Virus record (IMG/VR): IMGVR_UViG_3300045743_000045
Span: 1-32,773 of that record
Direction: 5' to 3' (one strand)
From: a virus
Length of the DNA: 32,773 bases
The position numbers and the translations under genes were made by a program. Every line of letters begins with the position of its first letter. The first letter of the stretch is position 1. The notes under the pieces are model-generated. The model was given only the letters and a program-made list of their open reading frames with translations. It searched no databases and was not told the origin of the DNA. This document shows, piece by piece, positions 1,164-31,847 of the stretch.

Positions 1164-1272
1164 CTGTTGCAGTTCCTTAAAAGCTATTTCCTATTCTAGA
1201 AAAGACACAGATGCGACTCAGCGGCAAATCATCGGTCACAATGCCGCTTACCAAGCTATTTGTGGGCATTAA
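1063..1272 (+). CDS. o-spanin (Rz1-like lipoprotein), nested gene
   Basis: The gene starts in the +1 frame inside the i-spanin gene and overlaps its last 101 bases. The N-terminus has positive residues (RR), then LLSLSLTLTGC, a clear lipobox whose Cys (about residue 22) would be lipidated, giving an outer-membrane lipoprotein of about 48 residues. The C-terminal part (ISYSRKDTDAT...HNAAYQAICGH) has the pattern S-x-x-DT...HNAAxxAICG that I associate with phage Rz1-type proteins. A second in-frame ATG at 1093 would give a shorter signal peptide. With the i-spanin it would fuse inner and outer membranes at the end of lysis. Confidence 0.75.
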   Translation: MLNQKPIRRAMLLSLSLTLTGCATQEPILIAGISCCSSLKAISYSRKDTDATQRQIIGHNAAYQAICGH

Positions 1273-1283
1273 GGGCGGCTATT

Positions 1284-1538
1284 ATGTCGAACGTTACTTA
1301 TAAAGGTAGCTCATTTGAGCTAGAAGAGATAATATCGCAGACAGTAACGCAGACATTGGTTAAGTTAGGTATAGACGTTTCAGACCCTATCGCTGTTCAA
1401 AAAGATTTCGCGCATTTGCGCAGTTGGCGTGAAGGTTCCGAAGCTATTAAGCGAACAGGTTTTCTTACGCTGTTAGGCTTGGTCATTACTGGCGCGGCGG
1501 GGCTTCTTTGGGCTGCATTAAAGACTAGCTTGCATTAA
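1284..1538 (+). CDS. 84-aa protein with C-terminal membrane segment, holin-like
   Basis: The start at 1284 is chosen over an upstream in-frame start because AAGGGCGG (1271-1278) lies at the right distance. The protein has an acidic, probably cytoplasmic N-terminal half with the pattern LGIDVSDP...DFAHLRSWREG and one strong C-terminal transmembrane helix (about residues 58-79, LTLLGLVITGAAGLLW). Proteins of this shape are common just upstream of phage small terminase genes and are often labelled holin-like. Whether this or the 58-aa protein is the working holin cannot be decided from sequence. Confidence 0.7.
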   Translation: MSNVTYKGSSFELEEIISQTVTQTLVKLGIDVSDPIAVQKDFAHLRSWREGSEAIKRTGFLTLLGLVITGAAGLLWAALKTSLH

Positions 1539-1564
1539 CTCAACAAATAGATTATGCGGCTAGT

Positions 1565-1957
1565 ATGTGGTCGGATGAGAAAGCAGAGAAAGACGCATTT
1601 GCGGCGGCTTGGATCAAAGAGCCTGACGCTTGGAAAGCCTCGCTCTTAGTATTTGGGCCTTCAAATGCAGGCCGAGCACTTCAGGCTTCGCACGTTTGGG
1701 TTAAAGACGACTACGTTTTAAACAAAAAAGCCGAATTGATTGAAGAGCACGGCGAAGAACACTATTTGCCCACAAAGGCCGACACAGCGCGCAAGGCTAT
1801 GGCAGTACATGACGAAGCGCGCACGGCTGAAGACAAGCTTAAAGCTCTAGACCTTTACGCGCGACTTATGGGTTATATTGCCAAGGCCGAACCTTTGGGC
1901 AAACTCGGCAACGGTATTGTTGCAATCCCTGTTAATGAATTGGATGCTAAGTTATGA
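1565..1957 (+). CDS. putative terminase small subunit
   Basis: A 130-aa soluble protein placed two genes upstream of the large terminase. Its central region, LPTKADTARKAMAVHDEARTAEDKLKALDLYARLMGYI cut at several points (about 69-107), has the spacing seen in small terminase proteins of this phage type, where a helical pair links a DNA-binding N-terminus to an oligomerisation core. It would bind the packaging start site and regulate TerL. No good Shine-Dalgarno precedes the ATG. Its last four bases (ATGA) overlap the start of the next gene, which implies translational coupling. The assignment is by position and pattern. Confidence 0.6.
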   Translation: MWSDEKAEKDAFAAAWIKEPDAWKASLLVFGPSNAGRALQASHVWVKDDYVLNKKAELIEEHGEEHYLPTKADTARKAMAVHDEARTAEDKLKALDLYARLMGYIAKAEPLGKLGNGIVAIPVNELDAKL

Positions 1958-2325: not shown

Positions 2326-3701
2326 GCATTGCACTAAAGCCGGAACAGATACAGCCGTTAATTAAACTCACGGCTAAGCAGATTGAGGCGCAAGGCATTT
2401 TAACAAGCCTTGCGACCTATCTTATGCTGTTCGGCGGTTCGCGTTCTGGAAAGACTTTTCTTCTAGTGCGCAACGTAGTTATGCGGGCGATGAAAGCTCC
2501 CGGATCACGCCATGTTATTCTGCGCTTTCGTTTCAATCATATTAAGCAATCTGTAATTTATGATACTTTTCCTAAGGTAATGCAGCTTTGTTTTCCAGGC
2601 GTTCAATATAAACTAGACAAACAAGATTGGTTTGCGAAGTTTCCTAACAATGCCGAGATTTGGTTTGGCGGTTTGGATGATAAAGAGCGAACAGAAAAGA
2701 TATTAGGCAACGAATATATTACTATTTACTTAAACGAATGCTCACAAATTTCGTGGATTGCTTTCGGACTTGTCGTTACGCGCCTTGCTCAAAAGGTTTA
2801 TCAAGTCCTAGAGGGCAACGAAGCCACGCCGCTTATTCCGCGCATCTATTTCGATTGCAATCCTCCGCGAAAATCACATTGGACATATCAAGTCTTTGTC
2901 AAAAAGATTTCGCCGGATACTAAAGAGCCGCTAGGCAATCCTAATAATTATGATTGTATGAAGCTAAATCCGGCTGACAATAAAGAAAACTTGCCGGATC
3001 ACTATATAGGTACGCTTTCCGAACTTCCTGCTAGGCTTCGGCGGCGCTTTCTAGACGGCGAGTTTGGCGATGATGCGCCCGGCGCGCTGTTCTTAGACGA
3101 AACTATAGATAAATGGCGCGTTAATGACGGTAAAACTCCCGATTTTGTTAGGGTTGTAGTTGCTGTTGATCCTTCTGGCGCTGACGATATAGACAATGCC
3201 GATAATGACGAGATTGGCATTTCGGTTGTTGGCCTTGGTACGGATGGCAACGCTTATCTTATGGAAGACTTGACGCTGAAAGCAGGACCGGGAACTTGGG
3301 GCAAAGTCGCGGTAGACGCTTACACGCGCCATGACGCGGATTGCATCGTTGCTGAGACCAATTTCGGCGGGGCGATGGTGCAACAGACAATTAAGGTGGC
3401 CGCAGCACGCCAAATAGTAGCCTTCAGGGCGGTTCATGCGTCAAGGGGCAAGGTAGTGCGGGCGGAACCGTTCTCGGCGCTGTATGAGGCTGGGAAGGTC
3501 CGCCACGTAGGGCGCTTCGTGAAGCTTGAGGAAGAGCTAAGCGGCTTCACGACAAGCGGCTACGTCGGCGCAAAGTCACCTAACCGCGCCGACGCTCTAG
3601 TGTGGGCATTAACCGCGCTATTCCCGGCAATTACGAAGCCGAAAGAACAGAAGCACGCCGCGCCTATTCCAACGAAGAATTATTTTAGTCAAAGGGCTTA
3701 G
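2322..3701 (+). CDS. terL: terminase large subunit
   Basis: A 459-aa DNA-packaging motor. The N-terminal ATPase has Walker A GGSRSGKT (38-45) and a Walker B/catalytic Glu strand TIYLNE (E139) followed by the coupling-motif region CSQ. The C-terminal RNase H-like nuclease has acidic residues in VAVDPSG (D283), AETNFGG (E345) and NRADALVWAL (D424). Length and motif order are those of headful-packaging terminases. It threads DNA into the procapsid through the portal encoded next, and cuts it. ATGA overlap with the metalloprotease gene and a two-base gap to the portal gene show tight coupling. Confidence 0.95.
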   Translation: MSIALKPEQIQPLIKLTAKQIEAQGILTSLATYLMLFGGSRSGKTFLLVRNVVMRAMKAPGSRHVILRFRFNHIKQSVIYDTFPKVMQLCFPGVQYKLDKQDWFAKFPNNAEIWFGGLDDKERTEKILGNEYITIYLNECSQISWIAFGLVVTRLAQKVYQVLEGNEATPLIPRIYFDCNPPRKSHWTYQVFVKKISPDTKEPLGNPNNYDCMKLNPADNKENLPDHYIGTLSELPARLRRRFLDGEFGDDAPGALFLDETIDKWRVNDGKTPDFVRVVVAVDPSGADDIDNADNDEIGISVVGLGTDGNAYLMEDLTLKAGPGTWGKVAVDAYTRHDADCIVAETNFGGAMVQQTIKVAAARQIVAFRAVHASRGKVVRAEPFSALYEAGKVRHVGRFVKLEEELSGFTTSGYVGAKSPNRADALVWALTALFPAITKPKEQKHAAPIPTKNYFSQRA

Positions 3702-3703
3702 TT

Positions 3704-5890
3704 ATGATTAAAGAAACAGAAGAATTGCGCAAAATTCATGACGAGGCTTTGAGCGAATTTGACAAAGTTCAAAAAGCTTTGCGAGACGAGCGGTTGCAAT
3801 GCTTGCAAGATAGGCGCTTTGTGTCACTTGCTGGTGCGCAATGGGAAGGCCCGTTAGGTTTGCAGTTTGAAAATAAACCTAAGCTTGAGATTAACAAAGT
3901 TCATTTGGCAATGATACGCATTGAGAATGAATACCGAAACAATCGTATTTCGGTTAGCTTCATTCCTAAAGACGGGACAACCGGCGCTTCGCTTGGCGAT
4001 ACGTGTAAAGGGCTTTATCGTGCTGATGAGCAAGATAGTACGGCTGACGAAGCGCGCGACAATGGGTTTCAGGAAGGCATAGGCGGCGGTTTTGGCGCTT
4101 GGCGGCTTCGTGCTGACAAGGAAGATGAAAACGATGATGACGACGACGCGCCGCAGCGCATTTACATTGAGCCAATCTTTGACGCGGATAGTTCTGTTTT
4201 CTTTGACATTGACGCTAAGCGGCAAGATAAGCGCGACGCGCGCAAATGTTGGGTTTTGTCGTCACTTTCTCGTGCTGCTTATGAGGAAGAATACGGCGAT
4301 GACGTTTCGAGTTGGCCTAAAGTAACTTATCAACGTCAATTCGATTGGCATACGCCTGACGTTATCTATTTGGCGGAGTATTACAAGAAAATTCAAGTTC
4401 CGTACACTCTGCTTAACTTTGAAGGCCCGGCGGGGCTTAAGAAAGTTCTAGATGAGGAAGAATACAAAGAAGATAGCGATTTGCGCAAGCAATTGCGCGA
4501 TACAGGCTTTGTAAAGAGGGGCGAGAAACTAAAGAAAAGGACAAAGGTGCGAAAGTACCTTATCAATGGCCAGCGTGTAATCGAGGATAACGGGATTATT
4601 GCTGGGTGTAATATCCCGATTATACCTTACTACGGTAAGCGTTGGTTTATTGACAATGTTGAGCGTTGCATGGGGCATGTGCGGCTTGCAAAGGATGCGC
4701 AACGTATTAAAAACATGCAAATGTCGAAGCTTGCCGAGATTGCGGCGCTTTCGTCTGTTGAAAAGCCTATCTTTACCCCCGAGCAAATGGGGCAACACGG
4801 AACAATGTGGACAGAGGATAATCTAAAGAATTATCCATATCTGTTGCTCAACCCTATGACCGACGCTGATGGGCAAGTTATTGCCAATGGACCTATTGCG
4901 TACACTAAAGCCCCGAATATTCCGCCCGCTATGGCTGCTTTGTTGCAGCTAGTCGAACAGGATATTAAGGACATTCTAGGTAATCAGGAAGCCGGGGAGG
5001 AAGTACAGTCTAATATCTCTGGCGTTGCTGTTGAGCTTATTCACAATAAGCTCGATATGCAGACTTTTATTTACATTTCCAATTTCGCCAAGTCTATGAA
5101 GCGAGAGGGCGAAGTTTGGCTGAGTATGGCAAAAGAAGTTTATGTAGAGAATGAGCGCAAGCGCAAGGTTGTTAATGACGCTGGCGAAACTTCGTCCGTT
5201 GTGCTCAATCAGCTAAACATCGACGAAGGCACAGGAACGCCTAAAGTCGTCAATGACCTTAGCGAAGCTGATTTCGACGTTAGCGCCATCCCAGGGCCTA
5301 CTTCGGAAAGCAAGCGCGCTTCTACCGTTAGATCATTAATTGGCTTGCTCGGCGTTACGCAAGACCCGGAAACTGTGCAAATCCTTACGGCAATTATATT
5401 GACCAATATTGAGGGCGAAGGGATTGAGGAAGTTAGAGAATACTTCCATAATAAACTTGTGAAAATGGGCGTTATTAAGCCTACGGCTGAAGAACAGCAA
5501 GTGATGGCGCAAGCCGCTGCGGCGGCTCAACAGCAACAGCCCGACGCTAATACTCAATTCCTGCTAGCTTCGGCAGAGCAAGCCAAAGCCGACGCAATGA
5601 AAAAGCAGGCCGATACGGTAAAGGTTACGGCTGATGCTGAAAAGTCTCGTGCTGAAACTATGAAAATACTTAACGATATTCAAGCGGGTAATGTAGAGCA
5701 AGCAATGGCTAAAATTGAAGCTTTGCAGAATGCTGCGCTTGGCTACCATAGTTCTCAACTTGCGGCTGACACTACGGCGGCTAATGTTGCCCACAAGCAA
5801 GCGCAAACGCTTCATACTCACGCGCAAATCGCCAATACCCAAGCGCAAACCGATGCAATCAACAATCCGCCCGAAACGGCGGCAACTTAG
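3704..5890 (+). CDS. P22-like portal protein
   Basis: A 728-aa protein, almost the length of P22 gp1 (725 aa), directly downstream of terL as expected. The body contains the long clip/stem/wing region with acidic stretches (DEDDDDD-like at about 139-147). The last 130 residues form an Ala/Gln-rich coiled coil (AEEQQVMAQAAAAAQQQQ and repeated Q-T-x-A units) like the helical barrel of the P22 portal. The portal forms the dodecameric ring through which DNA is packaged and ejected and to which the gp4-like protein binds. The identification rests on size, position and composition. Confidence 0.9.
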   Translation: MIKETEELRKIHDEALSEFDKVQKALRDERLQCLQDRRFVSLAGAQWEGPLGLQFENKPKLEINKVHLAMIRIENEYRNNRISVSFIPKDGTTGASLGDTCKGLYRADEQDSTADEARDNGFQEGIGGGFGAWRLRADKEDENDDDDDAPQRIYIEPIFDADSSVFFDIDAKRQDKRDARKCWVLSSLSRAAYEEEYGDDVSSWPKVTYQRQFDWHTPDVIYLAEYYKKIQVPYTLLNFEGPAGLKKVLDEEEYKEDSDLRKQLRDTGFVKRGEKLKKRTKVRKYLINGQRVIEDNGIIAGCNIPIIPYYGKRWFIDNVERCMGHVRLAKDAQRIKNMQMSKLAEIAALSSVEKPIFTPEQMGQHGTMWTEDNLKNYPYLLLNPMTDADGQVIANGPIAYTKAPNIPPAMAALLQLVEQDIKDILGNQEAGEEVQSNISGVAVELIHNKLDMQTFIYISNFAKSMKREGEVWLSMAKEVYVENERKRKVVNDAGETSSVVLNQLNIDEGTGTPKVVNDLSEADFDVSAIPGPTSESKRASTVRSLIGLLGVTQDPETVQILTAIILTNIEGEGIEEVREYFHNKLVKMGVIKPTAEEQQVMAQAAAAAQQQQPDANTQFLLASAEQAKADAMKKQADTVKVTADAEKSRAETMKILNDIQAGNVEQAMAKIEALQNAALGYHSSQLAADTTAANVAHKQAQTLHTHAQIANTQAQTDAINNPPETAAT

Positions 5891-5971
5891 CTCTTGCGTT
5901 GCTTCGCGTTCGCGCGTATGTGTGGGCAAGGTTTCCAGCTATCCTCAAAGCTGAGTTAGAAGGTCTTAATT

Positions 5972-8197: not shown

Positions 8198-8773
8198 ATG
8201 GCTTGGCTTGGAAGAAATGGACAGGTTCAACTTTCGTTGACGGCGGGGCAGTCGCTTGCCGTTGGAAGCTTTGGACCCGGTGATACCCGCATTTATACGG
8301 CGGGTCCGGTCAATGGGCAGGTTCCTCCCATTTTTGGACAGTATGCGAAGCTTAACGGTGGCGCGGGTTATTATACCTTCGCTGCGGCGGCTACGGTATT
8401 GCTTGAGGCTGCGAACGGTTGCGAAGTCGAGTACGACTATGGTGCGCAGCCTTCGCTCTCTGACGGCTCTGGCGCGAATACGATCACGGCGTTCGCGACG
8501 GGCGGACAGGCGAGCGCCACGCTGTTGACTGCAAATCATAATCGCATCACGGTTTGTGCTACGGCTGCGGACAGTGTGAAGCTACCCGCTGCTACTGTGG
8601 GCAAGCGTGTTACTGTCTATAATGCTGGCGCGGCGTCTTGCAACGTGTTTCCGCAGACCGGAGAAAGCACGAATAGCGGTTCGGCTAACGCGGCATTTGC
8701 TGTAGCCGCCACGAAATCTTGTATTTTCAATTGCGGCGCTAATGGCATTTGGACGGCTACGCTTTCCGCCTAA
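8198..8773 (+). CDS. putative capsid decoration or minor structural protein
   Basis: A 191-aa protein directly after the coat gene and framed by two hairpins, an arrangement typical of abundant capsid accessory proteins. The composition is Gly/Ala/Thr-rich beta. The N-terminal half (VQLSLTAGQSLAVGSF ... ATVLLEAANGCEVEYDYG) reads like an Ig-like or jelly-roll decoration domain. The C-terminal half (DSVKLPAATVGKRVTVYNAG ... SCIFNCGANGIWTATLSA) matches a beta module often found at the end of phage surface proteins. RBS AAGGAT (8183-8188) precedes the ATG. The function is inferred from context. Confidence 0.7.
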   Translation: MAWLGRNGQVQLSLTAGQSLAVGSFGPGDTRIYTAGPVNGQVPPIFGQYAKLNGGAGYYTFAAAATVLLEAANGCEVEYDYGAQPSLSDGSGANTITAFATGGQASATLLTANHNRITVCATAADSVKLPAATVGKRVTVYNAGAASCNVFPQTGESTNSGSANAAFAVAATKSCIFNCGANGIWTATLSA

Positions 8774-10150: not shown

Positions 10151-10173
10151 GTGTGGGCAAAGGAGATTTTGAT

Positions 10174-12420: not shown

Positions 12421-12421
12421 C

Positions 12422-13958: not shown

Positions 13959-14171
13959 ATGACTACGATTAACAAACTAAGCGCCGTCGATAGTGTAGTC
14001 GCGGCGGATCAAGTTCCGATTTATTCCTCTGCAAATGGCGACGCTCGCAAAGCCTCAATTACCGTGCTTGCGGCCTATCTTGCTGAAGTTCTAGCAACAG
14101 GCTTGCCCACAACCTTGCCAGCTGCGGCGGGAGTGCTGTGGAATAACGGTGGCGTTCTCTGCATTTCGTGA
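13959..14171 (+). CDS. small conserved tail-region protein
   Basis: A 70-aa protein with the pattern LSAVDSVVAADQVPIYSSANGDARKASITVL read in pieces, which recurs in small or N-terminal modules of phage tail proteins just upstream of the gp10-like hub. RBS AAGAGG (13946-13951). The C-terminus (AAAGVLWNNGGVLCIS) is a short beta hairpin seen at the ends of phage structural proteins. The exact role is unknown. The 71-base gap before it holds a 6-bp stem (CGTAAC at 13915-13920, GTTACG at 13930-13935) without a U run. Confidence 0.7.
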   Translation: MTTINKLSAVDSVVAADQVPIYSSANGDARKASITVLAAYLAEVLATGLPTTLPAAAGVLWNNGGVLCIS

Positions 14172-21400: not shown

Positions 21401-22115
21401 ACTTGTTACCGCAGTCAATGCCATTGAGAAGGGCGACGCTTCGCAGATTGCTAAGTTGATTTCGCTCATTCCAAAGGACATGCGGCAAGATGTTGTAGCT
21501 AGTGGCTTGCATACCGCTTTCGGAAAGAGCGCGGCGCGCAATTCTATTAGCTTCGGTGAATTCTCAAAATGGTATGAGCATTTGCTAAAGAATAAGCAAG
21601 CATACCATGCAATTATGTCAAACTTACCGCCTGAAGCGCGCAAGCAATTGTCAAACCTTTACCGCGTTTCAAAGGGTATTTCACTTTCTACGCGCGAAGC
21701 GATTACGACAGGCCGACTTACAACTGGCATGGAAGTTATTAAAGAGCGTATGGCGCAAGCCGACAACCTATTGAGCACGATTTACGGGATAGCGAAGCGC
21801 TCCGCAGTCGGCTCGCTTATGGAAGCCGTGACGACGCCGCTAGGGCTTCCTGGGGCGGGCATTGCTGCGGCTGTGGCGTCAGCATTGACCAAGGGCAAAA
21901 CTCCCGCCCTACAGGCTGCGGACGCGCTGCTAGCCTCGCCTGAATTTGAACAAGCCGTTAGGATGGCGGCGACAGGGCAGACCAAGGCCGCAGCCTCGCG
22001 CCTCGCCTACAGCAAGCCCTTCGTCCGGTTTGCGCGTAGTGTGGGCAATCCGCGCGAGATGACAAACCGTGAAAAGTTTATTTTGCAGGCTCTTGAGCAA
22101 AAGAATAACGATTAA
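18447..22115 (+). CDS. large ejection protein with N-terminal M15-like peptidase domain
   Basis: A 1222-aa protein in the P22 gp16 position but twice its length (609 aa). Residues 20-120 resemble a D-Ala-D-Ala carboxypeptidase (M15) fold: FHGKKMAID gives H41 and D48 in the H-x6-D spacing, and AVDLMHFD gives H113 as third ligand, preceded by D110. Two related modules follow, at about 196-238 and 258-296, each ending in I-x-LP-x-G. A Pro/Ala-rich linker (about 495-525) leads to a long helical C-terminal half. It probably cuts wall peptide locally while the ejection conduit is built. Three octamer copies lie within it and a fourth near its end. Confidence 0.75.
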   Translation: MSEFNPNVDPRLIDSIKTASEGYPFQVVLKSGYREGDPRFHGKKMAIDVQLLDPETGRAIPNYQSPENFRTYEQFAQKVREVQQDKYPELDKAMRWGGYFSGKKNYGAVDLMHFDAGGEDMIARYGSNGMNGGDWATGLNGAQRKLIPGAESVGMNAQRPASDLIADAEKGFADNKAPSTYDTIKSEVAANIPKSQLSNLLAAYQSGKMPPEAMKAFEKDVNSGFIALPVGVKVGGSMPTTNGTQPHELPQSAIDAYNAGAKNPYDKGAMPDDARKALDRDLHEGIISLPSGAVLNPHYMGIVEKAKEAVTGDLRSTDATKNSPDYPSMPELNSIDWKGFKSSLGTMTGGPDEIVKVIKANYPGVSVNQDEHGNYLLTSSIDGKQYAIKPGMTLGDAIRGATVAGTFTPAMKATTIVGGALANAGTEAALQAAHAGAGGSFDPSAIATAGVIGGAIPAAARTIEAVAPALKGAIGRVIGREAKAGVAPEARAGAGAVDPAAATVAPAPTVAPPAPVAGASQGAGFAEDAAKYEAGQQPILRETAKGTVEIPDNEHATLFDVGRRLAHGETVSTKELKEVYKTFKGYVTHDAQDEFSQFKSPEDVKSLATDYYHSAVEGAKPDKVIHAGDTLESDAARAAWLQKNRGSNVKLDTTADPVEAKIKPVTEGAQTPMDAAPPSSVPTPNLPEVSGYQSPYAAAKAEAPRATAAAPSVGMTPDEIAIAAKRAADGGLGANRALETLAAEARPNAKTVDAAKALGFEDYLQVDHVTTSQSTRQLHQVLKSIPGSMLKQAEGIKLGQVAEGANSIIKKLGGTEDLSTLNKNVGEHLEAARSALKNAAKKLYDEVDAAIPKETPISVSNFKAYIDQRIKELGGEVGLEPGEKRAIAQLSIGAGDKPTYGALDSLRKQINAVKFGQTGGFADTSDYIREGLLKALRKDQAAAAKAAGVGDKWELAQATAAQKLSLQQDITTLFGKTLDKAFTNKLVTAVNAIEKGDASQIAKLISLIPKDMRQDVVASGLHTAFGKSAARNSISFGEFSKWYEHLLKNKQAYHAIMSNLPPEARKQLSNLYRVSKGISLSTREAITTGRLTTGMEVIKERMAQADNLLSTIYGIAKRSAVGSLMEAVTTPLGLPGAGIAAAVASALTKGKTPALQAADALLASPEFEQAVRMAATGQTKAAASRLAYSKPFVRFARSVGNPREMTNREKFILQALEQKNND

Positions 22116-22126: not shown

Positions 22127-24061
22127 ATGATTGAGGTTAAATCTAGCTTCGCTTCTTTCTTTGATCTTGACGGCGTAGCACTAGAAAGTGGATCAATTTA
22201 TTTCGGGGTTGTCAATCAAAATCCCGAAGCTCATCCTATAACTATGTATTGGGATAGGACTGCAACGCAAGTTGCTTCGCAGCCTTTTATCACTATGGAT
22301 GGCGTTATAACTCGCGACGGAACACCCGCGCTTGTTTATGCGCCGGATGATTACTCGATTACGGTAAAGGATAAGAAAGGCCGCATTGTTTACACGTTGC
22401 CGTCAACCTTTCCGCAAGCGGTTGCAGTAACAACTACTGTTACTGCGGTTGCAAACAATACGGAACTTGCCGCGTTAGCCGCCGCAGATTACCCTATCGT
22501 GTTGCGCTTGGCGCGCTCTACAGCGGGCGATTGTCAACCTGTTTTCTACCTCGGAAAGATCACGGCTGCGACGGTTAATGCTGGCGCGGGCGATGGCGGA
22601 TGGCAAATCCCTGCATCTGACGGCGGGCATTTCGAGCTTGTTTATCCTCTCGGCGGGGTTTGCCCACAAATATGGGGCGCTGTTGGCCGCGCTGATTTGT
22701 TGGCGGATGATTACAATGCAATAGCTGCAATGTTTAATTACGTTGCAAATCTTCCCCATGTAACTAACAGCGAAAATTATGTTATTGACGGCGGCGGTTT
22801 GGCTTATTGCACGTCAAAGCCCTTCAACGCCAGCAACCTTAACTATGCCACTGTTCGCAATATGCAATTCAAGGCTATAGCTGGCGTAACTTGGGCCGGA
22901 AACAATAGTTCCGTTGATCTAGGCTATGGAACAAATGGAATTGTTACGCTTAACGGTGCAAGTTTTGTAACGTTTGAGCGTTGCACTTTCGATGCATCAT
23001 TTATTACTAATTGCCAGTGTTTGTATGCAGCCGGAACCGTAGGGTATAAGCTTACGTTTAGGGATTGCTCGTTTATTCATTGGGCGGCTACTGGCAACGG
23101 AGCTATTGTTTATCAATATGCTGAGGTTACTTTTGAAAACTGCGACTTTTTGCAGTACAAAAAAGCAGATACTAGCTATGGATTGCAGGCTTCTCACGCA
23201 GGGATAGGGCTTGGCTTCTTTAGCTCAACTGATAGCAATGTGACGAATTGCAATCTAGGGAACACTAAATATCCGCTGTATGTTGATCCGGCTAGTGCTT
23301 GGCTGCGCTTTGTCAACAATCGTATTTATGCAGAATGCGTAGGCTCGGCTTTTGCTAACGCCATTGGTATTAGATATGCAGGAACTAATTGCTTATTCAG
23401 TGATAATCACATTTCCCGTTGCCGTATTCTAATGGAAATATCCGCTAGCACAGTTGGCGGGGTATTGAGCGCACAAATCTTCGGAACAGTTGCCGAGTAT
23501 ATTGTCGGCCAATCTGTGTTTGCGGCTTGGGTTGAGATTACAACTTCGCTCGCGAGTGCTGTGTTAAGCGGGATAAACATTAAAGGTAATGAATTTGCTT
23601 CAGGGGCTATCCCGGCTTACAAGCTTTCGACAACCGGGGCGGGAACCTATATTATAACTGCGGCGGCTGTTGCGAAGCTTAACGCCGCAGTCGGAAGCGT
23701 TGATATTGAAATGATTGGGAATACTAATGCCCATTATACGGGGAGTGAGGATAAGCTAGGATTGCATACCTTTACAGGGGCTAAGCGGATAGTAATTCCG
23801 CACACAGCCGCTTACACAGTTACGCAGGATGACTGCGGTGCAACCCTTGTTATATCAACGGCTGGCGCTGTAAACTTCTCCAATACGTTGTCAGTCGGGT
23901 TTAATTGCCGATTGGTAGGCATTACAGGGGCGACGAACGTCGCCATAACGCCTACAGGGGGCGCAACGCTCAACGGCGCTGCGGGGGCTATAACACTAGT
24001 TAACTATCGCTTGGCCTTCATTGAGTGCATTGCGGTGGGAAGCTTCACGTTAGCCAATTAG
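22127..24061 (+). CDS. tailspike with P22-type head-binding domain
   Basis: A 644-aa protein, near P22 gp9 (667 aa). The ATG at 22127 is preferred over an in-frame TTG two codons upstream because AAGGA (22114-22118) is correctly spaced. The first 95 residues (SFFDLDGVALESGSIYFGVV ... TPALVYAPDDYSITVKDKKG) follow the P22 head-binding domain. Residues about 180-500 show short repeated strands with N/C/D turns (FVTFERCTFDASF, LTFRDCSFIHW, VTFENCDFLQY), typical of a right-handed parallel beta-helix with pectin-lyase fold. The C-terminal 100 residues form a beta cap. It would bind and possibly cleave surface polysaccharide. Confidence 0.88.
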   Translation: MIEVKSSFASFFDLDGVALESGSIYFGVVNQNPEAHPITMYWDRTATQVASQPFITMDGVITRDGTPALVYAPDDYSITVKDKKGRIVYTLPSTFPQAVAVTTTVTAVANNTELAALAAADYPIVLRLARSTAGDCQPVFYLGKITAATVNAGAGDGGWQIPASDGGHFELVYPLGGVCPQIWGAVGRADLLADDYNAIAAMFNYVANLPHVTNSENYVIDGGGLAYCTSKPFNASNLNYATVRNMQFKAIAGVTWAGNNSSVDLGYGTNGIVTLNGASFVTFERCTFDASFITNCQCLYAAGTVGYKLTFRDCSFIHWAATGNGAIVYQYAEVTFENCDFLQYKKADTSYGLQASHAGIGLGFFSSTDSNVTNCNLGNTKYPLYVDPASAWLRFVNNRIYAECVGSAFANAIGIRYAGTNCLFSDNHISRCRILMEISASTVGGVLSAQIFGTVAEYIVGQSVFAAWVEITTSLASAVLSGINIKGNEFASGAIPAYKLSTTGAGTYIITAAAVAKLNAAVGSVDIEMIGNTNAHYTGSEDKLGLHTFTGAKRIVIPHTAAYTVTQDDCGATLVISTAGAVNFSNTLSVGFNCRLVGITGATNVAITPTGGATLNGAAGAITLVNYRLAFIECIAVGSFTLAN

Positions 24062-24351: not shown

Positions 24352-26397
24352 TTAGTCGGCTAAGCCCCAATTCGGACCCGTCGAAACGTCAACCTTGACG
24401 GGAATGCGAAGCGGAATAGCGGTTTGCATCGTATGTTGGATAAATCGAAAAGCCTCTTGCATCTGCGGCGAATTGTCGCGCACGCTATGATCGGTTTCGT
24501 CATGTACGGTAATTCGGGGAACGCCTGTAAAGTCATAAACCCCGCTTCGATAGCAAGCGAGCATTCCCGTTTTCACTATGTCAGGCTCACTTCCCTGAAA
24601 CTTGTAATTGACGCCACGATACTCGTATGCACGCTTTATGTTAGAGCCGAATTCGCGTATTGCGCGCTCATAGGGTAGAGGTTCGCCGCGCCAGCCCCGC
24701 TCTTGAGGTTCCCACAAATTGAACCTGATGCGGCGGCCTAGAATGGTCCGCACGAAGCCAAATTCTTGAACCTCTTGGCCTATTAGCTTCATTGTGGGCT
24801 TAACGTATGGCGCGGCTTTGTGGTAGAATTGCGAGAACGTTTTACCGTCAGCCCTGCTCATTCCGGCTTTATACGAAAGCGAACTTTCAGACTGTCCATA
24901 AAGCAAACCGAAGTTCATGTTTTTAACTGGACGACGCTTGTCTTTAATCTCGGCCTTATCTGTTAAGCTCCAACCCATGAACGGTGCAACGCCCTCGTAA
25001 ACGTACATATGATAATCGGTTGCAGGATCATTGATATACCGCTGGCGTAATAGCTCCGCAGTACCGTCGCCGTCATCAACAGCGTAGTGCGCCAAGATGC
25101 GATAATGAATTTGACTGTAATCATTCTTTTGCCAAAACGCATGACCATAATCAGGCGTAAAGATTTGCCTAACCTTTTTACCCAGCTTCGTGCGCGAGGG
25201 GATATTTTGCAAATTAGGATCGGACGACGCAAATCGTCCCACAACTGTCCCGTTCTTATCGCCCTTCAAAGGATGAAATTGCGGAAACACTTTACCGTCA
25301 ACATTCTTTTCGATAATATATGATTGCAGGAAGGTTCCGCAAATCTTTTCGTGCTCGCGTATATCGACAATCAAATCCCCGATAGGGTGTTCAAGCTCGT
25401 TTAGTATCTCTTTTTCAAAACTCACTTTGTCTTTAGCATCGGGGTTTTTCTGAAGCTCTTTGCGGCTAGCTTTCTTCGCCGGTATTTGCAAACCTAAATG
25501 ATTGAACAGCTTCACAAGGTCGGCGGTTGAACAGCTTTCTAGTTTAAACCCGTGCTCGGCTTCAACACGCTTATAAAGTTCAATTGTTTCCTTCTCTAGT
25601 TCATCTTTCATAATTTCCGCTTTGGCTACGTCAACGGTTACGCCTTCCCGGCGCATTCGGACCAATAACGGAATAAGATCACATTCAAGACGAAATATCT
25701 GCGTTAGCTCTTGCCGCTCTAGCTCTTGCAATTGCAGCGGTAGAATTCGCAAGGGTAAATCTGCATCAGCTTCGCCGTAAGGACCTACTAGACGCGGGGG
25801 GCTGCGGTATATTTCCGCTCGCAATGCTTTTTCATTAGGCGAATATGCCGCTCTAATCCATTCGTATAATATGTTTGTTTCTTTGCCTTCGCCAAGATAC
25901 TTTTCGGATAGCACGTCAAGGGCAACCTTTGCATCTGCATCAAGGATAGCTTCAGCGAATTGAACGTCATTAAGTTGTCCATTTACATAAATTCCTTCCT
26001 CTGCTAGCCATCCAATATCATAAAGAAGGTTAGCGCCGACTTTCGGTAAATTGTTTTCGAGAACGTATTTCAGCCAAGGGAAAACTTGCGCAGGGTTTAG
26101 ATTGTGCTGCGGCTCAACCTCATGCCGAATCGGGAAGTACCACTTGCCCCTGTTCCCTAGCCGATCAACCGCCCCAATCGACGCGCCGACGATATGGCCG
26201 CGTCCGCGCGCCCATCCTGGCCCGCCTGTGGTCAACTCGGGGTCGAAGGTCTCAACGTCAAGGCTAAGCGCCGTTGCCGCTGACAGGTTCAGAAAGCTGG
26301 TAGGTGCGCGCCAGCCCGTTTCCGGTATGGGCGGAAGCGCCTTCAGCCGCGTAGCCTTGCGCGGGATTAAGTCTGCGTCATCGAAGAACAAAGACAT
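24352..26397 (-). CDS. family A DNA polymerase with 3'-5' exonuclease
   Basis: A 681-aa replicative polymerase. The exonuclease domain has Exo I LDVETFD (D47, E49), Exo II GANLLYD (N123, D127) and Exo III YGEAD (Y207, D211). The polymerase domain has GRFASSDPNLQNIP (387-400), motif A NDYSQIHYRILAHY (D426), the O-helix R488-x3-K492-x3-F496-x3-Y500-G, and motif C VHDE (D633, E634). In motif A the usual Glu of DYSQIE is His (H431). That position is the steric-gate/ribose-sensing residue in Pol I, an uncommon change. There is no 5' nuclease domain. The ATG overlaps the clamp stop by one base (TAATG), so polymerase and clamp are translationally coupled. Confidence 0.95.
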   Translation of the reverse strand: MSLFFDDADLIPRKATRLKALPPIPETGWRAPTSFLNLSAATALSLDVETFDPELTTGGPGWARGRGHIVGASIGAVDRLGNRGKWYFPIRHEVEPQHNLNPAQVFPWLKYVLENNLPKVGANLLYDIGWLAEEGIYVNGQLNDVQFAEAILDADAKVALDVLSEKYLGEGKETNILYEWIRAAYSPNEKALRAEIYRSPPRLVGPYGEADADLPLRILPLQLQELERQELTQIFRLECDLIPLLVRMRREGVTVDVAKAEIMKDELEKETIELYKRVEAEHGFKLESCSTADLVKLFNHLGLQIPAKKASRKELQKNPDAKDKVSFEKEILNELEHPIGDLIVDIREHEKICGTFLQSYIIEKNVDGKVFPQFHPLKGDKNGTVVGRFASSDPNLQNIPSRTKLGKKVRQIFTPDYGHAFWQKNDYSQIHYRILAHYAVDDGDGTAELLRQRYINDPATDYHMYVYEGVAPFMGWSLTDKAEIKDKRRPVKNMNFGLLYGQSESSLSYKAGMSRADGKTFSQFYHKAAPYVKPTMKLIGQEVQEFGFVRTILGRRIRFNLWEPQERGWRGEPLPYERAIREFGSNIKRAYEYRGVNYKFQGSEPDIVKTGMLACYRSGVYDFTGVPRITVHDETDHSVRDNSPQMQEAFRFIQHTMQTAIPLRIPVKVDVSTGPNWGLAD

Positions 26398-27392
26398 TAT
26401 ACTGCTATCTGCATAACCAAGCCGCGAACTTTATCGCCGAAGAAAAAGGTTGTACCTTTTACCCCAACGAAGTCAATCGTTTTAACGTAAGGCTCTATTA
26501 TTTTGAGATATTTCAAGTTGAAACTTGGGCCTTCCGGCAAGCCTTCAACTTCATAGCTAGCGCCTAAGTTTGTATCCGTATGCGTCGAAAGTATGCCTTG
26601 CCCACAATGAACGCGGTTGTCATCTGCGAAAGGCGCAATCGCGTCTAAGCCATGATAAAACGTCTCAGGAATAGGTTTATCGAGACAAGGAACGTTTAGA
26701 ATACGATCAACGTTAGGCCATTTCTCGGTGTATTGCTGCGTCTTTATCCATGAATTATCAGAAAACCAGAAAGTTACAGACCCGGCGGAAAATCCAAGCC
26801 TAGACAACGGCAGAGTGCATCTAGATACTGCGAGCGCGGCAAGCTTCGGTATGACAAGGGGAGGAAGGTCAATTCCGTGCCAGTATTCAAATAAGATATG
26901 TGTATTCGTTGAAACCATTGTTTGATTTCGTAAGAGAATAGAGGCTGTAACCATAAACTCTGAGTTATCAGATACAATTGTGCTGACGACATTGAAGCCT
27001 TCCTTAAGACTGTCATTGATTATGGCGCAAGGCGCGTCAGGCTCAACGCTTAGCAATTGATCTGAAGTCAAGCATGGAACAACCGCTTTGAACTTTTCCG
27101 ACTTTATTGAAAGCCGCTCGTTATCTAGCTGCGTAATCGAGAACGTTTCGCCGCAGCGTTCAAGCGCAGCCAATAGCTTTAGCGTATGCGGATTGGCGGT
27201 TATATCTTCGTCAATCCGCACGCCAGCGGCCAGCGTTCCGTTGAAGGCAACGGCTGTATTGTGGGCAAGTCGGCAATGTGTTTCGTGAGGTTGCCCCGCG
27301 TCTTTTTGAGCTACGCTGATAAACTTCAAAGCCGAAACTAGCGCCGTTGACTTGGCTTTAGGTTCGGCTTTCTTTCTTCCTCGCGGGGCCAT
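26397..27392 (-). CDS. DnaN-like sliding clamp
   Basis: A 331-aa protein encoded directly before and coupled to the polymerase. After a basic tail (APRGRKKAEPKAKS) it shows repeated alpha-beta units of the beta-clamp fold: an N-terminal unit around THCRLAHNTAVAFNGTLAAG, a middle unit with FMVTASILLRNQTMVSTNTH, and a C-terminal unit ending VGVKGTTFFFGDKVRGLVMQ, where DnaN-type proteins have their final strands. It is about 40 residues shorter than bacterial DnaN. It would encircle DNA and hold the polymerase. The identification is from fold pattern and neighbour, not from invariant residues. Confidence 0.75.
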   Translation of the reverse strand: MAPRGRKKAEPKAKSTALVSALKFISVAQKDAGQPHETHCRLAHNTAVAFNGTLAAGVRIDEDITANPHTLKLLAALERCGETFSITQLDNERLSIKSEKFKAVVPCLTSDQLLSVEPDAPCAIINDSLKEGFNVVSTIVSDNSEFMVTASILLRNQTMVSTNTHILFEYWHGIDLPPLVIPKLAALAVSRCTLPLSRLGFSAGSVTFWFSDNSWIKTQQYTEKWPNVDRILNVPCLDKPIPETFYHGLDAIAPFADDNRVHCGQGILSTHTDTNLGASYEVEGLPEGPSFNLKYLKIIEPYVKTIDFVGVKGTTFFFGDKVRGLVMQIAV

Positions 27393-27845: not shown

Positions 27846-27874
27846 CTTCGTTACTCCGCTTCGTTCGATGACTC

Positions 27875-27913: not shown

Positions 27914-27925
27914 AAAATAATTTAG

Positions 27926-28078
27926 CTAATTCCTGCGACAGAATGTCGCAAGCAAAAGCGGTAGAGTTAGGATCAATGCCAACGCTAGGAAAACTGAGGC
28001 TGTTGCCAGCATTCCTAACAAGCGAAATAGGATTGCCCACACATACAAAGCCGTAACCCAATTTGCGAGATTAAACAT
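27926..28078 (-). CDS. 50-aa membrane protein
   Basis: Starts one base after the methyltransferase-like gene's stop (TGATATG), so it is translationally coupled to it. The product (MFNLANWVTALYVWAILFRL...) is almost entirely hydrophobic, with two likely transmembrane helices (about 6-23 and 25-44) and a basic C-terminus CRRN. It could be a small inner-membrane protein acting on the host, for example in exclusion, but no family is recognised. It contains one octamer copy (28034-28041). Confidence 0.7.
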   Translation of the reverse strand: MFNLANWVTALYVWAILFRLLGMLATASVFLALALILTLPLLLATFCRRN

Positions 28079-28079
28079 A

Positions 28080-28628: not shown

Positions 28629-28629
28629 A

Positions 28630-28851: not shown

Positions 28852-29063
28852 CAAACTTTCCCCGTAATTTTGTTGGCAGTCGCGGTAGCTATCTCAGCAA
28901 TCACTCTTAGGTTATGAGCTACGTCAAACATGCGACAATCTAGCTCAGCTTTTGAGCTAGGCTCATAAACTCCTTTGATAATCGCCCTATCAAAGTCAAT
29001 CTTCGCTAGATCAAGCCTGCAATCTAGCTCGGCAATTACCTTTTGAAAGTCGGCTCTGTTCAT
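28851..29063 (-). CDS. 70-aa helical hypothetical protein
   Basis: Its ATG overlaps the preceding 47-aa gene's stop (ATGA) behind GGGGAAA. The product is predicted all-helical with repeated ELDCR motifs (AELDCRLDLAKIDF and KAELDCRMFDVAHNL, about 27 residues apart), suggesting a duplicated helical hairpin, and ends ATANKITGKV. No function is assigned. An octamer copy (29080-29087) lies just upstream of its ribosome binding site. Confidence 0.7.
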   Translation of the reverse strand: MNRADFQKVIAELDCRLDLAKIDFDRAIIKGVYEPSSKAELDCRMFDVAHNLRVIAEIATATANKITGKV

Positions 29064-29203
29064 CGTCGTTTCCCCATTGTGCCCACAAACCCATGAAGCT
29101 CTAGCAGCTTAGAAAAGCGCAAATCGAATTGCCACTTCGACAATATGCCATACTCAACTTGTGCCCAAAGTTCGCCAATGTCTGTTTTAAGTCGCGATTG
29201 CAT
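29060..29203 (-). CDS. 47-aa hypothetical protein, first gene of cassette
   Basis: Starts at 29203 with AAAGGA about 9 bases upstream and encodes MQSRLKTDIGELWAQVEYGI and a further 27 residues ending in MGKRR. It is helical and basic at the C-terminus. Its last four bases overlap the next start. It is the first gene after the AT-rich control region at 29204-29495 and heads a five-gene coupled cassette (47, 70, 73, 182 and 50 aa). The family is not recognised. Confidence 0.6.
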   Translation of the reverse strand: MQSRLKTDIGELWAQVEYGILSKWQFDLRFSKLLELHGFVGTMGKRR

Positions 29204-29495
29204 AACTTAGTCCTTTAAGGGGGGTTGACAGGGTATCAAATATCTAAGTGTCTGTTTTGTAAGGTATATATAGAGTTTTTTAGTAGTTTAATAAGTTTAA
29301 TGGTTTTTAAGAGTGACGTTTAATGAGTTTAATGGGTGGAGATATGCACATATCCTTATGCCCTCTGATATATATATATAGGGCAGCGCTAAACGAAAAC
29401 TGCTAAAAACAGCCATTTTTACCAGACATTTCAAACACTTAGCCAAAATTCACCCCGTTATACGCATTAACCTACTGATATTGCTATTAAACTTT
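29204..29495. other. AT-rich intergenic region, candidate replication origin or control region
   Basis: A 292-base gap downstream of the primase-helicase gene, visibly richer in A+T than its flanks. It holds four copies of GTTTAAT arranged as two direct repeats, a perfect palindrome GATATGCACATATC (29341-29354), a hairpin TGCCCT/AGGGCA (29359-29364, 29380-29385) around an alternating (AT) run, and TAAAAA/TTTTTA (29404-29409, 29416-29421). Reading leftward, TTAAAC and TATACC separated by 17 bases could be a promoter for the cassette. Repeats, palindromes and an easily melted tract next to a primase gene suggest an origin. No gene was seen. Confidence 0.55.
29286..29335. repeat. 18-bp direct repeats (iteron-like)
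   Basis: GTTTAATAAGTTTAATGG (29286-29303) and GTTTAATGAGTTTAATGG (29318-29335) differ at one of 18 positions and are offset by 32 bp, about three helical turns. Each contains two GTTTAAT units 9 bp apart (29286, 29295, 29318, 29327), so a protein could bind four sites on one DNA face. Either an initiator-binding iteron set or a repressor operator is possible. Confidence 0.75.
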
Positions 29496-31847
29496 TCACT
29501 CCCGCATCGCCCAAATACTATCAACAATTACGTAAGCCTTTTGCGAAGTTTCATAGTCATTTTGCATCTGCATTTTACCTATTTCGGCAACGTATCCGCT
29601 ATCTATCGCATTTTGTACCGCTCTTTTTATCGCATTTGTCGCCCCAATTCTATCTGTGCGAAAAGCTGACGTAGCCGCCAACCTGCGTAGAATGTACGCA
29701 TGTGGAATTACCTTAGCTTTGTGCAACTGTTGATTGTGGGAATAAATAGAAACATCTGAAAATGATCCTGAAACATATTGCCGCATAATTCTGCGAACTT
29801 CGTCAGCTTGTTTTGTTTCCGCATTTTCCGCCCCGAAGTTACCATCGTCAAATCGCTTATTGATCCGCGAGCAATCATAGCAAACTAGCCGGACAGCCCA
29901 TTCGGCTGCGACCATATCAATTATAGGGTTGTATGGGTTGCAGCCAACGGCGACAAGCGAGGCCAAGCGAAGCGCTTTTATATGTGCTCTATTCCATATC
30001 TCGCGTATTGTGTTATTCGTGCTGGCGTTTATCTTGTCGTCCATATCGTTGCCGAATTTACGCAAATAATCGTTAGCCTCGGACGTAGTTTCAACGTCAA
30101 CAGCGATAGGTTGACCGTTAACGCCATTTCCCATTTTAAGGCAATGCGCGGCCAAATCAGCGAAGCGGCTCTTGACGCTATCGGGAAGCTTCGCTTGCTT
30201 ATGGCCTTCGTTCAAGTGTGGGCGAAGGCTATTGCACTCGATAATGAGAAAGCGAGGAAGCAAGCCGGACGCAATCATAGTTTCGTCAATGGCTTTGTAG
30301 AACTCGCTAAACGTACTTTCACCTAAGATTGTGAGAGAAGGCGCGACAATCTCTAGAGTGTCTTTATCCTTATCCGAATAGATCCAAGGTTGAACCGTGC
30401 GGTTAACACCTGACTTATGATAGAGGTCTAGAAGGCAACGCTTCAACCCTAGTTCGACTGGCGAAGCGCGTTGGCTTGAAAGCTGTTGCATCTTAAGCCC
30501 GAATTCGCCAACCTGTGACAAAAAGCCTTTAGGACCTTTTGACATATGTTTGAATAGGGCAGGGGCGGAAGCTATTTCGCTTGGTCCGCGAAATTCCTTA
30601 GCAGCCGGAACTTCGTTTTTAATTGCGTTAAATAGCTTATCAATTCCAATTGCCATACCTTCTTTACCTAAGCCGGTTTCGGCTAGAAGCAAAACGTAAA
30701 GGTTAAGCCCGTCGTCGGAAATATTGTAAGCGCGCCCACAAACGCCAGCCATAAGGGCGATTGCTGCGGCTAGCGCGATCTCGGGGACCTGGCGCGGCGC
30801 GGCCTCATACATGAAGGCGGCAACCTCGCCGAGCAAGCCGGGAGGCATGGTGTAGGGGCTAGGCTCTTGCTCTGAGGGGGTAGAGGCGGCAAGAGCTTCA
30901 ATCGGGGCGTTAGCCGCGTCTCTTGCCGCCTCAATGCCATCTAGTGCGCTGTCGCGCGTCAGGCATTTGCGCGCTATAGCCTCATCCAAGCCATTTGCCA
31001 ACCCCTCAATGTCGATAGGCGGCAACATCCTGTCGAACGCCTTATTTAGCATATATTCGACGTAATCCGCGCGCTGTGCCTTCTCACGTTGGCCTAGCAC
31101 GCTGTTGCGGAATATGCGCGTAATTTGGTTCCGGCTCTGCGTGTAAAAGGCTACAATATCAATAAAAGCCATATCGGCTTCGGATTGGCTTGCGTACAAA
31201 TCAGGCCAAGTGCCTTCCAATAGTTTTTTGAATTTATCCCCGTTGACTGCGGCAATGGCACGTTTGATGATAGCTTCGTCAGTATCGCTTTCTTCATACT
31301 GCGGCTTATATCCTTGCGACGTTTTGACGCGCCCCATCTCTTCCCACAATACGCTTGCAAGCGCTTGCCGCTCAACAATAGGCGCATCGTTGAAAACGTC
31401 GCCAGTCATTGTAAAGAAGCGCTCGCTTGAATAAAGCTCAATTGAGCTACGCCGCCTTCCGCTAAGCAAATTAGCCTTTATGATGATATGCAAGCCTTGG
31501 CCGCTGGGACTACGCTCGCTGTAGCTGTTGAAGCTTTCATAAACCTTAAGCTGACGAGCCACGGTTTCAGCGTCTTTGGCTTGATCTAGGTCAATTCCCG
31601 CAAATTCGTCGTCACGGCTAAAAACAAAACCAATGCCAGCGAGCAAGCCCTTGGATGACACAAGCGCATTGCACGCTTCGTCAAATGAGGACCAAGTGTG
31701 GGCATTGGTTACGCTGGCGTGCTCGCCAGTCTTTGCGCTATATGGAACCTTAGTTGGCTTGCCGCTTGTCGCATCTTCGTATCTCCATACGACAAATTGA
31801 TTAAGCGCGCGCAATTCCTCAGGAATGCGCCTCAATTGATCTAGCAT
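29496..31847 (-). CDS. primase-polymerase/helicase fusion
   Basis: A 783-aa replication protein. The N-terminal AEP-type primase domain (about 10-170) shows FVVWRYE, a PTKVPYS strand, catalytic GIDLD (D86, D88), the nucleotide-binding turn SPSGQGLH (113-120) and SIELYSSERFFTMTG (E137). A helical linker (220-272) precedes a helicase-like ATPase domain with Walker A LAETGLGKE (about 388-396), where Glu replaces the usual Ser/Thr after Lys. The C-terminal region is helical and may contain a winged helix. It would unwind and prime the template for the family A polymerase. It starts two bases after the HTH gene, so both are one leftward operon. Confidence 0.82.
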   Translation of the reverse strand: MLDQLRRIPEELRALNQFVVWRYEDATSGKPTKVPYSAKTGEHASVTNAHTWSSFDEACNALVSSKGLLAGIGFVFSRDDEFAGIDLDQAKDAETVARQLKVYESFNSYSERSPSGQGLHIIIKANLLSGRRRSSIELYSSERFFTMTGDVFNDAPIVERQALASVLWEEMGRVKTSQGYKPQYEESDTDEAIIKRAIAAVNGDKFKKLLEGTWPDLYASQSEADMAFIDIVAFYTQSRNQITRIFRNSVLGQREKAQRADYVEYMLNKAFDRMLPPIDIEGLANGLDEAIARKCLTRDSALDGIEAARDAANAPIEALAASTPSEQEPSPYTMPPGLLGEVAAFMYEAAPRQVPEIALAAAIALMAGVCGRAYNISDDGLNLYVLLLAETGLGKEGMAIGIDKLFNAIKNEVPAAKEFRGPSEIASAPALFKHMSKGPKGFLSQVGEFGLKMQQLSSQRASPVELGLKRCLLDLYHKSGVNRTVQPWIYSDKDKDTLEIVAPSLTILGESTFSEFYKAIDETMIASGLLPRFLIIECNSLRPHLNEGHKQAKLPDSVKSRFADLAAHCLKMGNGVNGQPIAVDVETTSEANDYLRKFGNDMDDKINASTNNTIREIWNRAHIKALRLASLVAVGCNPYNPIIDMVAAEWAVRLVCYDCSRINKRFDDGNFGAENAETKQADEVRRIMRQYVSGSFSDVSIYSHNQQLHKAKVIPHAYILRRLAATSAFRTDRIGATNAIKRAVQNAIDSGYVAEIGKMQMQNDYETSQKAYVIVDSIWAMRE

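Follow-up and report, generated by a model that had tools for sequence, protein, structure and literature searches.

A dispersed TGTGGGCA word as a candidate strand-specific priming signal of phage PrimPol enzymes

Why should one short word recur some twenty times, on both strands, in a viral genome segment of 32,773 nucleotides (hereafter the window, the whole stretch analysed)? A preliminary description of this DNA had listed protein binding, Chi-like recombination, modification and packaging or organisation as possible roles and had chosen none of them. Its view that the signal acts at the DNA level is retained here, since codon and protein explanations fail, while the data favour a role outside that list, a primase-start signal read on single-stranded DNA. 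In the reading preferred here, to which we assign a probability of roughly 0.86, TGTGGGCA constitutes a genome-wide set of strand-specific template recognition and initiation sites of the phage PrimPol, a primase-helicase encoded in the window (Table 1).

Over-representation and conservation of the word

TGTGGGCA has 20 exact matches in the window, 11 on the plus and 9 on the minus strand, spanning 1261-31704, against 0.44 expected under an order-2 Markov model and 0.63 ± 0.84 (maximum 4) in 100 dinucleotide shuffles; the earlier tally of 11 and 9 copies with about one expected is thus confirmed, the expectation being about 0.4-0.6. Models of order 3, 4 and 5 trained with the motif masked predict 0.27, 0.63 and 1.7 copies, and the sub-word TGTGGGC occurs 27 times against 2.0 expected. 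An unmasked model of maximal order predicts about 20 copies because the sub-words themselves consist of motif copies, and the order 5-6 comparison proposed earlier is therefore uninformative unless the motif is masked.

An origin in protein sequence or codon usage is ruled out by synonymous-codon shuffling with proteins fixed (n = 1000), which yields 0.93 ± 0.97 copies (maximum 5) against the 16 coding copies. The copies occupy every codon phase and both senses, four of them (1261, 5921, 10152 and 14104) lie outside or across the main coding sequences, and valine, as had been claimed, is mostly encoded by GTT (350 codons, against 71 GTG). Moreover, the loss of the word at synonymous positions in relatives, named earlier as a possible refutation, is not seen: between phages related by replication module rather than virion module, sites are kept at 9/9 (KL1-Kakheti25) and 11/12 (Yazdi-Kakheti25), against 0.18-0.25 for permuted 8-mers.

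Table 1. Positions of the TGTGGGCA sites and of the genes discussed in the window.
Feature	Position	Strand	Basis or remark
TGTGGGCA site 1	1261..1268	+	exact match
TGTGGGCA site 2	1767..1774	-	exact match
TGTGGGCA site 3	3601..3608	+	exact match; inside terminase large subunit gene
TGTGGGCA site 4	5788..5795	-	exact match; inside portal gene
TGTGGGCA site 5	5921..5928	+	exact match; intergenic
TGTGGGCA site 6	8596..8603	+	exact match
TGTGGGCA site 7	10152..10159	+	exact match; intergenic
TGTGGGCA site 8	14104..14111	-	exact match; intergenic
TGTGGGCA site 9	15433..15440	+	exact match
TGTGGGCA site 10	16989..16996	-	exact match
TGTGGGCA site 11	18902..18909	+	exact match
TGTGGGCA site 12	19159..19166	-	exact match
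TGTGGGCA site 13	20582..20589	+	exact match
TGTGGGCA site 14	22040..22047	+	exact match
TGTGGGCA site 15	22661..22668	-	exact match
TGTGGGCA site 16	26599..26606	-	exact match; inside clamp gene
TGTGGGCA site 17	27260..27267	+	exact match; inside clamp gene, antisense to it
TGTGGGCA site 18	28034..28041	-	exact match
TGTGGGCA site 19	29080..29087	-	exact match
TGTGGGCA site 20	31697..31704	+	exact match; inside PrimPol gene, antisense to it
Family A DNA polymerase (PolA), probable primer extender	24352..26397	-	Pfam DNA_pol_A, E 3.8e-58
Sliding-clamp-like processivity factor	26397..27392	-	PHROG 947, E 8e-58
Putative methyltransferase-like gene	28080-28625		
PrimPol primase-helicase, 783 aa, proposed motif reader	29496..31847	-	AEP catalytic domain, helix-bundle domain (HBD), MCM-like AAA+ helicase
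PrimPol HBD, residues 221-273	31029..31187	-	PF22763, NrS-1 polymerase HBD, E 1.2e-8
Small HTH-like protein adjoining primase gene, rival reader	31850..32056	-	HTH-like by eye and by annotation of positional counterparts
DUF7173 protein, co-occurring with PrimPol, possible partner	32202..32771	+	PF23791, E 3.4e-30

Linkage of the word to the primase

The window enzyme is a PrimPol of the NrS-1 type: its AEP catalytic domain carries DxD and SPSGxGxH motifs, the HBD lies C-terminal to it, and a C-terminal AAA+ helicase domain (DUF3987; MCM-like fold) follows. It matches the NrS-1 HBD and DUF3987 in Pfam, PHROG 3022 ('DNA primase', E 2.7e-221) and, by PDB profile, the NrS-1 primase (E ~1e-40), and its structure model resembles NrS-1 PrimPol over residues 2-273 (Z 20.8) and MCM over residues 335-663 (Z 17.7). 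Across 25-31 sequences D85, D87, S112, G117 and H119 are invariant, and S114 is invariant or almost so. The HBD family PF22763 scores above its gathering threshold in the window, Kakheti25, PAJD-1, slur01 and L187, and below it in Ab_SZ3; R253 and K255 of the HBD (numbered without the start Met) are nearly invariant and, by our own reading of the profile alignment, appear to correspond to NrS-1 R249 and K251.

Almost all compared phages with a close full-length homolog of this PrimPol carry TGTGGGCA, in 14-23 copies and irrespective of virion type or host, and about 70 IMG/VR contigs with a PrimPol homolog (GC 0.33-0.58) hold 444 copies against 19.0 expected. Coat-protein relatives lacking the primase show no excess (23 against 26.9 expected in 953 kb), and 9NA and phi105, whose similarity to PrimPol is confined to its N-terminal part, have no such word in the stretch examined. 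Furthermore, the word changes with the primase clade. Phages with Queuovirinae-type PrimPols (group B, as distinct from the TGTGGGCA users of group A) are enriched in TGTGGTCA (483 against 44 expected) and TGTGGTTA (203 against 30), with TGTGGGCA close to background (64 against 39.5); a separate primase clade uses TGTGGGGN, and pVco-14 and Siara also fit this covariation. When the TCA/TTA label of the word is placed on the PrimPol tree, it requires 3 changes, against a shuffled mean of 46.8. TGTGG is common to the words of group A, group B, the TGTGGGGN clade and a distant clade (CATGTGG), which gives all of them the GTG(G/A) template core expected of primase recognition sites. About 20 of the 158 primase contigs, many of them short, have no clear word.

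A host-specific signal is excluded because phages of one host species differ in their word in step with their own primase, as in Halfdan and slur01 (both of E. coli) and in Kakheti25 and PAJD-1 (both of P. aeruginosa). Word-discriminating columns were sought in the HBD, yet the many columns that differ between group A and group B PrimPols are spread over the whole enzyme (13/90 in the HBD, 27/169 in the catalytic domain) rather than lying chiefly in the HBD, and for this reason no specificity residues are named.

One exception to the TGTGGGCA pattern is VPv64, which has a close PrimPol homolog and the word TGTGGTCA. The family A polymerase was considered as the motif reader and rejected: VPv64 has a window-type PolA yet uses TGTGGTCA, and the window PolA does not match the Kakheti25-type PolA in tblastn although the word is identical. 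Used as a query against viral contigs, the window PolA found no relatives.

Strand-specific layout and the reading of the sites

Copies on the same strand are evenly spaced and avoid one another. The coefficient of variation of same-strand gaps averages 0.480 in group A (0.778 ± 0.034 expected) and 0.461 in group B (0.819 ± 0.039), same-strand neighbours closer than 800 bp number 6 against 34.9 ± 4.0 and 8 against 45.7 ± 4.6, respectively, and successive copies switch strand 166 times against 119.7 ± 7.3 expected. In the window by itself the joint minimum same-strand gap gives P = 5e-5, the evenness of the minus strand alone is not significant (P = 0.16), and gaps of 8-12 kb occur in phiAxp-1, PSV3 and Yazdi. 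Orientation follows genome polarity, with a ratio of 109:60 where the late genes lie and of 35:21 where genes run the opposite way, which speaks against orientation following the genes (P = 3.6e-5) and leads to the rejection of a transcription-linked signal. Even spacing and same-strand avoidance on each strand, together with the polarity, point indirectly to a signal that is recognised in single-stranded form.

The 8 bases directly 5' of the word have a composition of their own with a sharp edge: A at -8 to -5 has a frequency of 0.10-0.12 against 0.22-0.25 in controls, the edge falls at -9 (P = 4e-6), and positions -2 and -1 are A/T-rich. Permuted words served as controls because one-mismatch neighbours include weaker sites. 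This footprint, clear in group A only, bears out the earlier claim of restricted flanks and replaces its imprecise K...W form, the signal in the wider family being these upstream bases; its length matches a primer of 8-9 nt.

NrS-1 PrimPol recognises 5'-GTGG-3' or GTGA and starts mainly at the first upstream base (PMC8718748), the primase of pRN1 requires GTG and copies the bases immediately 5' of it into an 8-nt primer (PMC8076596), and in both homologs the HBD is the part that binds the GTG site (PMC8718748, PMC8076596). By analogy, a fork would expose single-stranded DNA, the HBD would bind 5'-GTGGGCA-3' in the template, and the AEP domain would start a primer opposite the conserved T immediately 5' of GTGGGCA, so that its first base would be A. 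The primer would span positions 0 to -8, some 8-9 bases, and be extended by the clamp and the family A polymerase. Selection would retain one site per ~2-6 kb on each strand independently, giving a built-in genome-wide priming map whose denser strand is probably the one that templates lagging-strand synthesis at the main fork. The excess of the word, its linkage to the PrimPol, the layout, the conservation of sites and the footprint are observed; the PrimPol as reader, the starting base, the length of the primer and action at the fork are inferred.

The likeness to NrS-1 extends to a homologous AEP and HBD enzyme, a GTGG core and a predicted start just upstream; the sites differ, being GTGG/GTGA or TTTGGTTA there, and an 8-mer with an upstream tract in some 20 copies, even on each strand, here. 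The 8-mer reported for NrS-1 occurs once in the NrS-1 record, and the NrS-1 genome, when tested for a dispersed word, has no array, its repeats clustering at 17061-17371. That the minimal NrS-1 site, GTG(G/A), is shorter than the 8-mer counts against the PrimPol reading, as does the lack of a dispersed array in NrS-1. The pRN1 enzyme ORF904 likewise reads a template GTG through its HBD and primes over the adjoining bases, but is a distant homolog (Foldseek E ~1e-5) with no evenly spaced genome-wide array reported in the literature consulted.

Alternative readers and wider meaning

The strongest rival, though itself improbable, is that the words serve, on single-stranded DNA, for the assembly or loading of some other replisome component, akin to primosome-assembly signals, with DUF7173, a clamp-related factor or a helicase as the reader in place of PrimPol. 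The per-strand layout implies single-strand reading and leaves the protein unspecified. Clamp homologs occur in every motif-bearing genome compared that covers the region, and DUF7173 homologs in most motif-bearing phages and in none of W01-W03. Against this reading stand the GTGG core, which a homologous PrimPol is known to recognise, the upstream tract of primer length, and motif-bearing phiAxp-1, in which tblastn finds no DUF7173 homolog. Since clamp and DUF7173 co-occur with PrimPol, a partner could add part of the specificity, a point that weighs against the PrimPol reading.

A Chi-like hotspot for a phage helicase-nuclease is very unlikely. The motif is oriented, dispersed and over-represented, and many of the phages have genes for a helicase and a Cas4-type nuclease, but W01 and W03 possess a DEAD helicase, a Cas4 exonuclease and Sak4 with neither PrimPol nor motif excess; in addition, the word tracks the primase, and same-strand avoidance with strand alternation is unexpected for Chi.

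Equally unlikely are dispersed operators for the small HTH-like protein encoded beside the primase gene in the majority of these genomes. The stoperators of mycobacteriophage L5 are also short, asymmetric, dispersed and biased in orientation, but those sites are bound by a repressor as duplex DNA and point along transcription, which motif orientation here does not follow (the 35:21 bias in opposite-gene blocks), and duplex binding gives no reason for per-strand evenness. The HTH-like protein of the window matches nothing in Pfam or PHROG; proteins of this kind share 20-55% identity, and those of Queuovirinae are unrelated, yet the word stays constant. A role in modification, restriction or packaging, or a host signal of the DNA-uptake kind, would accommodate the excess in both orientations and the putative methyltransferase-like gene, but is just as improbable given differing words within one host, the absence of that gene from most motif-bearing genomes compared, and a per-strand spacing left unexplained.

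Set beside other initiation systems, PrimPol sites of the proposed kind have partial parallels. RSF1010 ssiA and ssiB are strand-specific single-strand initiation signals read by a dedicated plasmid primase, with one structured site per strand instead of an array of short words. The T7 gp4 primase, which belongs to another family than the window PrimPol, also has a sequence-specific template site dispersed in its genome. That site, 5'-(G/T)2GTC-3' (PMC12839067), is shorter than TGTGGGCA. Searches of the literature for the word, or for repeats scattered through the genomes of these phages, found no earlier report; the KL1 genome paper contains one copy, only within its ribosome-binding-site table.

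Primase start sites are usually thought to be short, frequent and in need of no layout. Here selection appears to space rare, long sites evenly on each strand, and many PrimPol phages probably carry such a genome-encoded priming map, with long sites, selected even per-strand intervals and a word evolving with the primase. On that reading fragment starts would be set by the genome, and genome statistics alone would offer a route to the specificity of uncharacterised primases. Site layout may likewise suggest which way unstudied phages replicate, and the module itself occurs in familiar phages of Pseudomonas, E. coli, Burkholderia, Acinetobacter and other hosts.

The word in the window genome

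The window encodes a P22-like coat protein, a portal and a tail accessory factor, with a replication block on the opposite strand comprising a family A polymerase, a clamp-like processivity factor and the 783-aa primase-helicase (PrimPol). It is most of a phage genome and probably incomplete, since its close relative G022 has helicase, nuclease, SSB and Sak4 genes that the window lacks. TGTGGGCA occurs in 20 exact copies (11 on the plus and 9 on the minus strand). Simple models predict 0.44-0.63 copies, and Markov models of orders 3-5 with motif copies masked out predict 0.3-1.7; 16 coding copies were seen against 0.93 under synonymous codon shuffling. The excess claimed in the preliminary description therefore stands.

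Also in the window, a gene matching PHROG 757, annotated as DNA methyltransferase, has a homolog in G011, a contig without the motif, and none in the motif-bearing relatives compared. GCTGCGGC/GCCGCAGC is over-represented in the window (23 vs 3.0 expected) and in L112 (34 vs 3.2), perhaps just as alanine-run codons.

Coordinates of features in the window and comparison phages
Feature	Genome	Position
PrimPol	window	29496-31847 (-)
DUF7173	window	32202-32771
DUF7173	L110	31930-32370
PHROG 757 match	window	28080-28625
AGTGTAAC repeat cluster	L283 (NrS-1 phage)	17061-17371

Linkage of the word to the primase

Viral contigs sharing the coat protein fall into two sets, with TGTGGGCA excess (G001, G002, G021/G022 and G003) and without it (the remainder). 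Where the block is covered, the word-rich relatives have primase, clamp and DUF7173 genes in common with the window, and the compared word-poor members are without them; PrimPol was not found in G003, a 20-kb fragment. Minus G001-G003, the coat relatives amount to 953 kb and contain 23 copies, where 26.9 would be expected. A second search, started from the primase rather than the coat protein, found phages of quite different type with 14-23 copies each, where the word ranks top or near-top among dispersed 8-mers. Its bearers include Septimatrevirus, Kilunavirus, Titanvirus, Lokivirus and others, infecting Pseudomonas, Burkholderia, Rhodobacter, E. coli, Xanthomonas, Sphingomonas, Achromobacter and Acinetobacter, and about 70 further IMG/VR contigs total 444 copies against 19.0 expected.

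Queuovirinae-type primases (group B), about 30% identical to the window type (group A), accompany other words: TGTGGTCA (483 vs 44 expected) and TGTGGTTA (203 vs 30), with TGTGGGCA close to background. TGTGGTCA is also the word of VPv64, pVco-14 and Siara. One small primase clade uses TGTGGGGN, and in a distant one CATGTGG behaves alike with respect to strand. In a tree built from 158 primases, which partly reflects whole-genome kinship, the TCA/TTA label requires 3 changes (46.8 for shuffled labels) and the GCA label 14 (48.8); about 20 of the 158 contigs showed no clear word. Because of that kinship, module swaps weigh most, such as G001, which joins a window-type virion block to a Kakheti25-type replication block (primase 74% identical) and carries the word throughout.

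Compared with L110, G001 and G002 have plainly exchanged a module: their P22-coat virion genes are podovirus-like and stand beside a Septimatrevirus-type replication block with PrimPol and PolA 74-76% identical. DUF7173 accompanies PrimPol in nearly all phages compared and is a candidate primase partner; travelling with PrimPol, it and the clamp could add to the specificity. A host origin of the word is rejected, as the words of the E. coli phages Halfdan and slur01, and of the P. aeruginosa phages Kakheti25 and PAJD-1, differ with their primases.

Other dispersed words were seen in these phages. AAGGAGT/TAAGGAGT, strongly over-represented in the Septimatrevirus/Kilunavirus group (L110, L111, L120-L122; 14 vs 0.07 expected in Kakheti25), probably marks ribosome-binding sites and stands out because ACTCC/GGAGT is otherwise avoided, a shortage that hints at avoidance of a restriction target. 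The queuosine-gene phage pVco-14 (L284) has a second strong word, GCCTGGC/GCCAGGC (44 vs 2.5), possibly in a DNA modification context.

Layout on the two strands

Across 13 genomes, same-strand gaps are much more regular than chance predicts, with a CV of 0.465 on the denser strand (0.887 +- 0.060 random) and 0.462 on the other (0.772 +- 0.071), and strand switches at given positions number 166 against 119.7 +- 7.3, an excess of alternation. In a larger set, with null positions drawn from words within two mismatches, the CV is 0.480 in group A (0.778 +- 0.034) and 0.461 in group B (0.819 +- 0.039). Neighbours closer than 800 bp lie on opposite strands in 64 cases and on the same strand in 6 (34.9 expected) in group A, and in 80 and 8 (45.7 expected) in group B. 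The window's smallest same-strand gaps are 1458 and 1046 bp (joint P = 5e-5); some genomes have large gaps between copies. This per-strand evenness and same-strand avoidance argue for recognition of the word in exposed single-stranded DNA, not duplex; a duplex-binding reader offers no reason for even spacing per strand.

About 64% of copies are oriented along the late genes. Orientation does not track gene direction (P = 3.6e-5): the ratio is 109:60 in late-gene blocks and 35:21 where genes run opposite (Fisher P = 0.87), which ties the bias to the polarity of the genome, presumably that of replication.

Upstream footprint and proposed priming

At 624 sites of group A, base composition is distinct from background over the eight positions 5' of the word and changes abruptly at -9. 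The A fraction drops to 0.10-0.12 between -8 and -5 (0.22-0.25 in controls), where G+C reaches 0.61-0.67, and -2 and -1 are A/T-rich. Little signal lies beyond +8, and group B sites show the footprint weakly.

Sequence-specific primase sites are already known; a literature search returned no description of a long primase word evenly placed per strand genome-wide and evolving with the primase. By sequence, the window primase matches NrS-1 PrimPol at E about 1e-40, and its structural model does so at Z 20.8 over residues 2-273; the C-terminal part is MCM-like (Z 17.7). NrS-1 PrimPol most efficiently recognizes 5'-GTGG-3' and GTGA and most often begins synthesis at the base immediately upstream (PMC8718748); in pRN1 the HBD (helix-bundle domain) binds GTG, and an 8-nt primer is made from the bases directly 5' (PMC8076596). 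TGTGGGCA contains GTGG with a constant T immediately 5', and its upstream tract is about the right length for such a primer.

Unlike the window phage, NrS-1 phage is without a dispersed array. Just downstream of its primase gene, eleven AGTGTAAC repeats cluster in both orientations in what looks like its replication origin; the only TTTGGTTA found in L283 sits inside the cluster. Its recognition sequence has two genome copies per the literature and one in this record.

The word's linkage to PrimPol, covariation, layout, polarity, conservation and footprint are observed. PrimPol would read TGTGGGCA and begin primers at the T just 5' of GTGG; copied from position 0 to -8, these would open with A/T-rich bases and end in a G/C-rich 3' half with little U, a composition that may keep weak U:A pairs out of a primer containing RNA. 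Such sites would serve the replication fork.
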